Part shown: positions 60,839 to 64,000 of the stretch, piece by piece
Numbering within the stretch: the first letter of the stretch is position 1
Layout of the letters: every line of letters starts with the position of its first letter
Origin: Methylobacterium sp. Leaf91
Lineage (GTDB): Bacteria; Pseudomonadota; Alphaproteobacteria; Rhizobiales; Beijerinckiaceae
NCBI RefSeq assembly: GCF_001422815.1
Contig: NZ_LMMP01000034.1
Span: forward strand, 71,442-135,441
Length of the DNA: 64,000 nucleotides
Direction: 5' to 3'
Program-made: the position numbers and the translations under genes
The notes under the pieces: model-generated
Databases searched by the model: none
The model's input: the letters and a program-made list of their open reading frames with translations, nothing else
Told to the model about the DNA's origin: nothing

Positions 60839-61671
60839 GCGACGACGGTCTCCCGCCCCTGCGCGATGTCGTGCTGAAACACGACCTCGCGCCGAAGAAG
60901 GCGCTCGGACAGAACTTCCTGTTCGACCTCAACCTTACCGGGCGGATCGCACGCGCGGCCGGCCCGCTCGAGGGCGTCACGGTGGTGGAGGTGGGACCCG
61001 GCCCCGGCGGCCTGACGCGGGCCCTCCTATCGGCGGGCGCCGCCCGCGTGGTGGCGATCGAGCGCGATCCGCGCGCCCTCCCCGCCCTCGCAGAGATCGC
61101 CGCGCATTACCCCGGTCGTCTCGATGTCGTCGATGCCGACGCGCTTCGGTTCGACCCGCGCCCCCTCGTCGGCGACGGGCCGGTGCGGATCGTCGCAAAC
61201 CTTCCCTACAATGTCGGGACACCGCTGCTGACCGGGTGGCTGACCGAAGCGTCATGGCCACCCTGGTGGGAATCCCTGACGTTGATGTTCCAGCGCGAGG
61301 TGGCTGAACGGATCGTCGCGGACGAATCCGACCGTGCGAATTACGGACGCCTGGGCGTTCTCTGCGGCTGGCGCACCGAGGCGCATATCCTGTTCGACGT
61401 GGCGCCCTCGGCCTTCGTACCGCCACCGAAGGTGACATCGAGCGTGGTCCATTTGAGGCCAAGGCACACGCCCCTCCCCTGTTCGGTGACGGCGCTCGAA
61501 CGAGTGACGCGCGCGGCGTTCGGTCAGCGTCGCAAGATGCTGCGCCAGAGTCTGAAGGCCGCCACACCCGATCCGGCGCGCCTGCTCGACGCGGCGGGAA
61601 TTGTGGAGACGGCCAGAGCGGAAGAAGTACCGGTGGCGGGCTTCGTCGCGATGGCGCGCGCGCTGGACTGA
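60835..61671 (+). CDS. rsmA: 16S rRNA (adenine1518/1519-N6) dimethyltransferase
   Basis: A 278-residue KsgA/Rsm[21 protein letters not shown] begins the fold, the SAM motif is [15 protein letters not shown], and the catalytic NLPY motif is [31 protein letters not shown] is typical of the C-terminal part. It dimethylates two adjacent adenosines near the 3' end of 16S rRNA. The start is a TTG overlapping the pdxA stop (TTGA). Confidence 0.94.
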
Positions 61672-61691
61672 TCGCGCCGACGCTCGGCCGC

Positions 61692-62144
61692 TCAGAACTT
61701 TCCCAGCATCGGGAAATCGACGTTCAAGGCGGATTCGGCTGCAAGCGGCGCCTCGCGGCGGCGCGGCTTGCGGTTGATGACCTGCTTCAGCTTCGATTTC
61801 AGCACCGACATATCGAACGGCTTCAGGATGAAGGCGTCTGCGCCGGCCTGGTGAGCGAGGTTGATGTCCTCGAAATCGAAGGAGGCTTCGGTGAGGATGA
61901 AAGGCGTGTTCATCAGAGCATCGTCGCCGCGGATTTCGCGCAGCAATGTCAGCCCGTCCATCGGCTCCATGGCCAGATCCGAGATGACCAGGGCGTATTT
62001 GCGCTCGCGCAGCCGCTCCAACGCGTCGGGACCGCTGGTCACGCCATCGACGTCGGGGAAACCGATCCGCGTCATCAGAAGGATGACCAGCTTCAACAGT
62101 TTCTCCTGATCGTCGACAATCAGGATCGGTGGCGTCTCGCTCAT
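61692..62144 (-). CDS. Stand-alone response regulator receiver protein
   Basis: A 150-residue CheY-like receiver. Acidic pair D11-D12 (ILIVDDQEKLL), phosphoacceptor D56 (LVISDLAMEPMDG), conserved Thr85 in FILTEAS and Lys108 in ILKPFD. A short basic C-terminal tail follows (RKPRRREAPLAAES) with no output domain. It probably relays a signal by protein contact. It lies 55 bases downstream of a BLUF photosensor gene on the same strand. Confidence 0.92.
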   Translation of the reverse strand: MSETPPILIVDDQEKLLKLVILLMTRIGFPDVDGVTSGPDALERLRERKYALVISDLAMEPMDGLTLLREIRGDDALMNTPFILTEASFDFEDINLAHQAGADAFILKPFDMSVLKSKLKQVINRKPRRREAPLAAESALNVDFPMLGKF

Positions 62145-62199
62145 GGGCTTTCGAAGCTCAGGGTCGGATATCCGACGTCAGGAAGGCTGAGATGGAATA

Positions 62200-62667
62200 T
62201 CAGACGAAAAGATGGTCGATACCCTGTTTGGCCATGGATTCGGCCTGGAGTGCAACCGCGAGAGAATGGATGACCCCGGCTTTCGGCGTGCCGCGCTGAA
62301 ACATCGGCAGCAAGCCGGCCTTCTGGAAGACCGCGTCGTTCGCTGGGTTGCGGATGACGGTCACGAACGAATTGACGAATTCCCGCTTCACGATCTCGCG
62401 CCACTCGACGATCTGGACGTCGCGATGCCGGGTGTCGTTGCTGATCCGGCCGAACGTGTCGTTCACGGAGGTGCGCTCGCCCTCGATGATCTGGGCGGCG
62501 AAATTCTGCTCCACCAGCAGGAAACTGGTGATCACCGAAAATTCGTTCTTCTTCTGAGCCTGACGGGTGATCTCGCCGAGCTGACGCGTCCGGCCTGCCG
62601 CGTCCGCCGCGAGATTCAGGCGGGAGAAGTAGATGAGGTGGACAAGGGTCGTCCGCTTGCTCTTCAT
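62200..62667 (-). CDS. BLUF-domain blue-light sensor protein
   Basis: A 155-residue protein made almost entirely of a BLUF (flavin blue-light) domain. The flavin-contact residues are in place: Tyr13 in LVHLIYFSRLN, Asn41 in KKNEFSVITSFLL, and Gln59 in QNFAAQIIEGE. The RISNDTRHRDVQIVEWREI segment matches the family's D-x-RH block. After blue-light absorption it should change contacts with a partner. It is upstream of a stand-alone receiver and divergent from the flagellar hook gene. An alternative reading as a degenerate BLUF is unlikely given the intact triad. Confidence 0.88.
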   Translation of the reverse strand: MKSKRTTLVHLIYFSRLNLAADAAGRTRQLGEITRQAQKKNEFSVITSFLLVEQNFAAQIIEGERTSVNDTFGRISNDTRHRDVQIVEWREIVKREFVNSFVTVIRNPANDAVFQKAGLLPMFQRGTPKAGVIHSLAVALQAESMAKQGIDHLFV

Positions 62668-62838
62668 GATCCCCGCCCGTTGCGCTCACGGCTGGATGAT
62701 AACCGGCACAGGCATAACGCTGGGTAAACGATGCGCCAAGCTTTTACGGAACCGGCAAAAGCTGCCGGGTGCCTCGGGGAAAAGGCCATTCTTGCCGGCC
62801 GGCCATAAATATTATCTCGTTATTTCAATGGCTTAGAT

Positions 62839-62854
62839 TTGGCATCCCGCTTGC
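62839..62854 (+). promoter_or_regulatory. Sigma-54-type promoter upstream of flgE
   Basis: TTGGCA-TCCCGC-TTGC matches the -24/-12 consensus (TTGGCA-N6-TTGC) with correct GG-to-GC spacing of 10 bases. Transcription would start near 62866, about 45 bases before the flgE ATG. Confidence 0.6.
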
Positions 62855-62910
62855 GGATGATGGAATGAACCAATTTCGGTCCACGTTATTTTCAACAAAG
62901 GTTGCCGGTC

Positions 62911-64000
62911 ATGGATGTGTTTTCCGCGCTGCAGACGGCGGTCTCGGGCATGAAGGCCCAGGGCTTCTCTCTGGAGAACATCTCCGGCAACATCGCGAAC
63001 TCGCAGACAACGGGCTTCAAGCGGGTCGATACCAGCTTCGTCGACCTCGTCGCCGAGCAGGCGCCCGATCGTCAGGTCTCCGGCAGCGTCAGGGCGAATT
63101 CCGTTCTGACCAACTCGATTCAGGGCAACATTATCGCCACCGAGATCCCGACCAACATCGCCTTGAACGGGCCGGGTTTCTTCGCCGTGCAGACGAAGAC
63201 CAGCGACGTCAACGGTCAGACTTCGTTCTCGGCAGGAAACCTCTACACGCGCCGCGGCGATTTCACGAACGATGCTGAAGGCTTTCTTCGTAATGGCGGC
63301 GGTGCCTACCTGACCGGAACTAGTCTCGATCCAGCAACTGGTCTCGCTACGGGCGAAGGTCCGATTCAGATTTCAAGATTGCCGGTGCCTGCAAAGCCAA
63401 CGACCAAGATTGAATACACAGCGAATCTTCCAGAAACTCCTTCTGTTTCTTTAGTTGGAAAGACTTTTACTCAATCCTCAACGAATCCAGTGGTTTTAAG
63501 TGGCACTAATCAAACAGGGATCGTTAGTGCGGCCGACGCTGGTGTCCTTATTGCCGGTAGCCTTCCTGGCCCTTTGTTGACGGCTTATTCCGACAGTGGA
63601 GCACCAGCCACCTTGAACATGCGATGGGCCAAAGTTCAGGATGCCTCGCCTGCGGCAGGCACTGTCCCTGCCAAGGAGGATGTGTGGAACCTGTTTTACG
63701 CCAACAGCAGCACGAATGGCGGAATTGACTCGACCTGGACGAATGTCGGCACCGCGTTTCAGTTTGATGGGGGCGGTAAACTCACAAATCCTGCTGGTGA
63801 TTCCATCGCCCTCTCTGGCCTTACCATCGACAATGTTGCCCTTGGACCGGTGTCATTTGACTATGGCGCCAGTGGTTTGACTGCTCACAGTCAAGCGGGT
63901 CTCGTGACCACTGCTCTTCGGCAGGATGGTTTCAGCTCGGGTACGCTGAATAGCCTTTCAGTGAGCGAAACTGGAGATGTGGTCGGCAGCTATAGCAACG
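62911..64000 (+). CDS. flgE: Flagellar hook protein FlgE (partial, 3' end beyond the window)
   Basis: The reading frame opens MDVFSALQTAVSGMKAQGFS, followed by NISGNIANSQTTGFKRVDTS, the conserved flagellar rod/hook N-terminal motif. IALNGPGFFAVQ and LYTRRGDFTNDAEGFLRNGG are also typical of hook-type proteins. FlgE polymerises into the flexible hook joining the motor to the filament. AAGG lies upstream of the ATG at 62911. From about 63270 onward the middle, surface-exposed part is noticeably AT-richer than neighbouring genes. About 363 codons are visible without a stop. Confidence 0.9.
   Translation, partial: MDVFSALQTAVSGMKAQGFSLENISGNIANSQTTGFKRVDTSFVDLVAEQAPDRQVSGSVRANSVLTNSIQGNIIATEIPTNIALNGPGFFAVQTKTSDVNGQTSFSAGNLYTRRGDFTNDAEGFLRNGGGAYLTGTSLDPATGLATGEGPIQISRLPVPAKPTTKIEYTANLPETPSVSLVGKTFTQSSTNPVVLSGTNQTGIVSAADAGVLIAGSLPGPLLTAYSDSGAPATLNMRWAKVQDASPAAGTVPAKEDVWNLFYANSSTNGGIDSTWTNVGTAFQFDGGGKLTNPAGDSIALSGLTIDNVALGPVSFDYGASGLTAHSQAGLVTTALRQDGFSSGTLNSLSVSETGDVVGSYSN

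Follow-up and report, generated by a model that had tools for sequence, protein, structure and literature searches.

Does a BLUF gene that is paired with a lone CheY-like receiver, back to back with the flagellar hook gene flgE, report blue light to the flagellum? The question is raised by one end of a 64,000-nucleotide stretch of Methylobacterium sp. Leaf91 (GCF_001422815.1, contig NZ_LMMP01000034.1, positions 71,442 to 135,441), hereafter the window. Members of this genus are common leaf dwellers exposed to strong light, and a preliminary description of the window had proposed a blue-light input to motility or flagellar gene expression. Our best explanation, to which we give slightly less than an even chance, is a two-gene cassette in which a derived PixD-type BLUF protein regulates a CheY-like receiver acting on flagella in Methylobacterium, with the input left open. 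To judge from sequence comparison, the pair probably tunes flagella; light is the weakest step of the reading.

The two proteins are as simple as first described. The BLUF domain (PF04940, 73.4 bits for the 155-aa protein against a Pfam cut-off of 25) and the receiver domain each stand alone, no second domain being found in either protein by Pfam, and both genes lie on the same strand, divergent from flgE. The AlphaFold2 model of the BLUF protein (mean pLDDT 84.3) has the BLUF fold, and its closest solved structures are PixD proteins (Foldseek, 2hfo_E, TMq 0.73, rmsd 2.4 angstrom). According to PMC5899715, the flavin residues of PixD are Tyr8, Asn32 and Gln50, Asn32 being the flavin-contact Asn. 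These align to Tyr13, Asn41 and Gln59, which are invariant in the 75 Methylobacterium rows of our main alignment (62 distinct sequences, window included), as are Arg74 and Asp78, and the flavin triad is thus intact, as had been claimed. For comparison we used 73 other BLUF rows from the same order, taken from the best matches of the searches and including a few duplicates. Lys40 was considered as a replaced triad Asn and dropped: it aligns to PixD Asn31, a variable site which corresponds to His44 of AppA, while the contact Asn32 aligns to the invariant Asn41. Since this site varies among the other BLUF rows (52 Asn, 7 Arg, 5 His, 5 Lys), Lys40 is unremarkable.

What sets the protein apart is the Trp-x-Met motif of beta-5. 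Neither residue is found in the subfamily, by which we mean the 75 Methylobacterium rows together with 7 rows from sister genera (0 from 82), whereas the other BLUF rows have Trp91 in 70, Met93 in 68 and both in 68 from 73 (PixD numbering). The beta-5 alignment permits a one-residue shift, and Trp and Met are missing in both registers. Membership in BLUF is not excluded by this, since the two residues are only semi-conserved, with one or both missing in 5 of the 73 other rows. In addition, position 39, Gly in all 73 others, is Ser (Ser48) throughout the subfamily. The photoactive Gln50, also present in 73/73 others, is replaced by His in all three rows of sister genus g44 (L090, L091 and L093), which keep the receiver partner, and is retained in the four rows of sister genus g58. 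A tree of 92 rows (12 from Methylobacterium, 7 from the sister genera and 73 others) places the subfamily in one clade (support 100/99, the bootstrap being unsettled) whose stem measures 0.91 changes per column. The best reading of these comparisons is a derived PixD-like BLUF subfamily.

The losses in beta-5 argue for an altered output rather than for flavin loss, and since the motif is gone the protein probably relays its state otherwise than AppA or PixD do. In PixD, M93A abolishes the light-induced protein change and retains the red shift, while Trp91 to Ala has little effect on the light response (PMC5899715). The dispensability of Trp91 in PixD means that the Trp loss by itself need not abolish signalling and is weak evidence. 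Taken with the Gly to Ser change and, in one genus, the Gln to His change, the loss of Trp-x-Met makes canonical light signalling doubtful as the conserved function, and the blue-light input was not supported in the form in which it was proposed.

The receiver keeps the complete acceptor site, with D11, D12, D56, T85 and K108 each found in 75/75 rows. After a designed protein, its best relatives among solved structures are CheY chains (79.4 bits), and its AlphaFold2 model has a pLDDT of 82, with low confidence from residue 132 onward. It shares the phosphoacceptor residues D/D/D/T/K with CheY and differs from it in having Phe105, at the position of Tyr106 of CheY, and a basic tail with a conserved C-terminal FP[ML]LGK. 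No che genes were recognised in the neighbourhoods that were read.

The BLUF gene belongs to nearly every genome of the genus. One ortholog each (65-100% identity) was found in 110 from 111 Methylobacterium genomes, and the missing one (G013) is probably an assembly gap, since in this 420-contig assembly the flgE contig breaks inside flgE. We compared 45 loci, of which 43 are titled Methylobacterium or Methylorubrum and 2 are metagenome-assembled genomes titled by family; the nearest BLUF among them is that of Methylobacterium bullatum (98% identical), and three further loci reach 95-97%. The receiver follows the BLUF gene directly, on the same strand, in 45/45 loci. The divergent neighbour of BLUF is flgE in 42 of them; in the other three the pair comes after flgI and a flgN-like gene and shares their strand. 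A flagellar gene therefore adjoins the pair in all 45 loci, in two arrangements, and the BLUF-receiver-flgE arrangement is not a product of chance, since it is kept across the genus. In a second set of 29 loci, from genomes partly shared with the first, flgE adjoins in 28. In the remaining locus (G034, which appears to be the genome of L047) the order is flgG, flgA, flgH, flgI, flgJ, flgN-like, BLUF, receiver, with flgK on a different contig. Wherever BLUF does not adjoin flgE, the best flgK match of the genome lies away from the pair. A flgN-like gene was also seen beyond flgL in 7 of the 42 flgE-type loci, which suggests that the flgI to flgN-like cluster, flgLKE and the pair may once have been contiguous.

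The far side of the receiver is variable. It holds rsmA in 4/45 loci (one locus stops inside the receiver), and the first neighbours in five further loci are of four kinds: DUF2189 twice (one confirmed by Pfam, the other read from its translation), a PAS-GGDEF-EAL gene, a GNAT acetyltransferase and a prfC-like gene. The constancy of the flagellar side next to this turnover was counted in favour of our explanation, together with the presence of the ortholog in almost all genomes, the strict acceptor site and the PixD-like predicted fold.

The model for such a cassette is PixD-PixE, a known pair of a BLUF protein and a response regulator (PMC5899715). By analogy with PixD, which holds PixE, the BLUF protein would bind and regulate the receiver, with a state that could depend on light, flavin redox or a partner. 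The receiver would then act, possibly after phosphorylation at Asp56, on the flagellum, at the motor switch or in assembly; its signalling face and the conserved tail may provide the contacts. The window pair resembles PixD (Slr1694)/PixE of Synechocystis in its short BLUF with the same overall predicted fold, C-terminal helices included, in a partner of the response-regulator type, encoded next door in all 45 loci, and in the link to motility (PMC5899715). It differs in the missing equivalents of Trp91 and Met93 and in its neighbours, PixD acting on type IV pili according to the same source, whereas the window pair adjoins flagellar genes. The partner is also different, a bare receiver here, while PixE carries a PATAN domain besides its receiver. 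With the BLUF domain of AppA the protein shares the positions of the flavin triad (Tyr21, Asn45 and Gln63 in AppA), but it has no equivalent of Trp104 and Met106 and no further domain. AppA has an extra domain and a role in the expression of photosynthesis genes.

Outside Methylobacterium the pair was found in two genera only. A 36-row profile searched across 248 genomes of the family gave ortholog-level matches (E <1e-38) in Methylobacterium, g44 (3 genomes) and g58 (4 genomes), the next match (8.4e-24) being a different BLUF. No further orthologs were found among 297 genomes of the order, where the best match outside Methylobacterium was 2.2e-21, nor among 385 genomes of the class, where only two Methylobacterium genomes matched at E 1e-18. 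Since at most 15 (family), 12 (order) or 9 (class) candidates per genome were scored, an ortholog could be missed. In the sister genera the receiver follows BLUF in 7/7 genomes and is 46-50% identical to that of the window. The wider conserved unit is therefore the BLUF-receiver pair, common to three genera, and the flagellar linkage is real and restricted to Methylobacterium, having either arisen there or been retained only there.

Three results weigh against our explanation. Around the sister-genus pair, none of 10 flagellar queries had a match in any of the 7 genomes (E 1e-4; 18 kb scanned in 6 genomes and a contig of 5.1 kb in one, with gene lists read in four), and this weakens a flagellar target as the conserved function. 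The preliminary description had looked to relatives for the flagellar neighbourhood and had named its absence there as counting against the idea; the neighbourhood held throughout Methylobacterium and was absent from both sister genera, so the expectation stood for the genus and failed beyond it. The BLUF-receiver co-variation in a mirror-tree comparison of 41 loci (r 0.868) is not above that of BLUF and flgK (0.888). Finally, the receiver has no second domain by Pfam, whereas PixE has its PATAN domain. The loss of flagella could not serve as a natural experiment: the FliF/YscJ ring profile was matched above cut-off in all 111 Methylobacterium genomes, and the profile was matched in 13/13 of a second set; all 7 sister-genus genomes match it.

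If the BLUF protein works canonically, a FAD photocycle would release or capture the receiver in light and so alter motility or flagellar expression. The five strict residues Tyr13, Asn41, Gln59, Arg74 and Asp78, the resemblance of a short BLUF plus receiver to PixD-PixE, the flagellar neighbourhood and the tolerance of PixD for Trp91 to Ala all speak for it. We nevertheless hold it unlikely, given the absence of both beta-5 residues from all 82 subfamily rows, the effect of M93A in PixD and the His of g44. Those same losses, with the Gly to Ser change, the long stem and the receiver kept in g44 beside a His, speak for a light-blind partner: the BLUF fold would persist as a module that binds the receiver or senses flavin redox for it, and photochemistry would not be its function. 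We regard this as possible, though still well short of probable, because the flavin-contact residues are strict in Methylobacterium (75/75) and g58 (4/4), which is unexpected for an empty pocket. Both of these readings overlap with the cassette that we favour. A more specific version of it, in which a photosensor became a dedicated receiver partner with a replaced output motif, was recruited to the flagellar regulon and reads redox or a cellular partner instead of light, is an idea we consider rather doubtful.

The pair could also owe its position to its neighbourhood alone, having landed by flgE in the Methylobacterium ancestor and staying there since breaking the shared promoter region would harm flgE, with no role in flagella at all. 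The sister-genus pairs without flagellar neighbours, the related upstream element that they also have, and the lack of excess BLUF-receiver co-variation over flagellar genes agree with this. On the other side, 3 of the 45 loci have the pair away from flgE but still behind flgI and the flgN-like gene, and in the one of these three that was read at length it forms the end of the flgG-flgA-flgH-flgI-flgJ-flgN-like cluster. This objection is softened by the flgN-like gene beyond flgLKE in seven other loci, with which the pair's stay by that gene needs no relocation; overall we see the explanation as improbable, but not strongly so. As for the receiver, it might be a Cle protein, that is, a CheY-like effector of cyclic di-GMP with an arginine-rich tail, here tuned by BLUF. 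Like the Cle proteins of Caulobacter it is a single receiver with a short basic C-terminal extension in a flagellar setting. These proteins are defined by the motif [YF]xGPx[RK]R (PMC5677366), of which there is not one copy in our 75 rows, and the assignment was rejected as very improbable.

The cassette that we favour would, through a core BLUF gene kept next to flagellar genes across the genus, connect a sensor with swimming in a concrete way that can be tested. A light-blind protein would be an example from nature of a photosensor that has taken on another function, and the Gln-to-His genus g44 offers itself for comparison. A light-active one would show that BLUF proteins can signal in the absence of Trp and Met, a point that matters for the disputed mechanism of their output.

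The features of the locus are given in the table. Gene names without a cited family match were read from translations, and a simple GC3 gene caller misreads some of the high-GC frames here.

Table. Genes and candidate control elements at the BLUF-receiver-flgE locus (positions in the window)
Feature	Position	Strand	Remarks
CheY-like receiver gene	61692-62144	-	150 aa, stand-alone; Pfam Response_reg E 1.6e-21
BLUF/receiver gap	62145-62199	-	55 bp, from coordinates; fits one operon
BLUF gene	62200-62667	-	155 aa, short, PixD-like fold; Pfam BLUF E 1.6e-20
BLUF-proximal 11-bp direct repeat GTTTACCCAGCGTTAT	62714-62729	-	candidate operator of the BLUF-receiver operon; CtrA-box-like geometry TTTA-N7-TTAT
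Palindrome CCGGCA-N5-TGCCGG	62752-62768	.	conserved; candidate FlbD (ftr) site
Second, imperfect CCGGCA copy, flgE side	62784-62804	.	conserved block plus CGGCA word
Sigma54 (RpoN)-type promoter TTGGCATCCCGCTTGC	62839-62854	+	putative; reads toward flgE
flgE, flagellar hook protein	62911-64000, 284 bases more beyond the window	+	ATG at 62911; FlgEFG_subfam match

The spacing of the BLUF and receiver genes is consistent with one operon. The region between BLUF and flgE was compared in 70 loci (59 distinct sequences) with 5900 letter-shuffled copies as control; since the rows are related, the counts below show conservation and not independent events. The strict sigma54 pattern points toward flgE in 56/70 loci and toward BLUF in 0/70; by distinct sequence it is found in 46/59, against 0.3% of the shuffles. 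No sigma-70 promoters or terminators were found in a scan of 61600-63000. The palindrome, searched as CGGCA-N5/6-TGCC, is present in 56/59 distinct sequences and 0.6% of the shuffles, and is a candidate ftr site. The genome encodes an FlbD ortholog (790.6 bits, cut-off 750) adjoining fliG and fliF. In Caulobacter, flagellar promoters carry ftr sites to which FlbD binds (PMC3930126). The second CCGGCA copy contains a five-column block conserved at >=95% (alignment of 54 of the 59 sequences), and CGGCA is found on the flgE side of the palindrome in 56/59, a count for a short word without a computed chance level.

The BLUF-proximal element, relaxed to GTTTAC-N4-NGTT[AG], occurs in 56/59 distinct sequences against 0/5900 shuffles. 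Visual inspection showed a related form upstream of BLUF in each of the 3 rearranged loci and in the 4 sister-genus loci inspected, and its presence in the sister genera makes it independent of the flagellar linkage. The CtrA site is TTAA-N7-TTAA (PMC6180460); the element has this spacing, although its letters are not exact. The exact BLUF-upstream motif is found once in the genome, and one mismatch adds 5 matches (9 for a reversed control), one of them between fliL and flgF-type genes. A full-site pattern of the CtrA type gave 15 matches genome-wide against 4 for its control, a set of which the BLUF-proximal element is not an exact member. Two of the 15 precede flagellar genes, namely fliL/flgF-type genes (C4:53927-53942) and a flgB-like gene (C49:34761-34776), the latter with a Pfam score of 19.8, slightly under the cut-off of 20.7. 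Because the spacing fits and such sites precede these flagellar genes, control of the pair by CtrA is a reasonable guess.

The neighbour flgE scores 239.8 bits with the FlgEFG subfamily (cut-off 70.25). Past the window it is followed by flgK (275.8 bits, cut-off 170.75), flgL (with an FlgL-type match below the family cut-off), an opposed M3-type peptidase named from its translation alone and fliP (283.2 bits, cut-off 217.45). The middle of flgE (63361-63960) is a patchwork: residues 151-350 share only 42-74% identity with the four closest loci, compared with 88-100% for residues 1-100 and 401-450, and the GC content drops to about 0.50, against 0.65-0.72 in flgK. This pattern suggests that the exposed hook domain was recombined or imported.

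In the rearranged loci, a 161-aa protein of the flagellar cluster is encoded upstream of BLUF (L047 5435-5917, L135 10484-10969). Neither Pfam nor NCBIfam gave a match to it at E 0.001, and from its position we would guess at a chaperone of the FlgN type. In Methylorubrum aminovorans, the PAS-GGDEF-EAL gene mentioned above, of a type involved in cyclic di-GMP turnover, is the first far-side neighbour of the receiver and is on the same strand (L059 7293-9305).

No paper on the BLUF-receiver-flgE locus was found among those listed from the open-licence literature, judged by titles and the opening of abstracts. Proteins of this kind have been tallied earlier, with two short BLUFs counted in M. 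populi and the genus called BLUF-rich (PMC4844311). The Leaf91 genome has further BLUF genes. One canonical short BLUF (C12) is of the same family and of similar size, but it is 28% identical to the window protein and, unlike it, keeps Trp and Met; no flagellar gene was recognised in the 3.3 kb read around it. A third BLUF gene (C34:292093-292371; L003 1303-1788) lies between frr, which encodes RRF, and an amino-acid-kinase gene reading as pyrH. Phe replaces its photoactive Tyr and Asp its flavin Asn, making it another altered BLUF.

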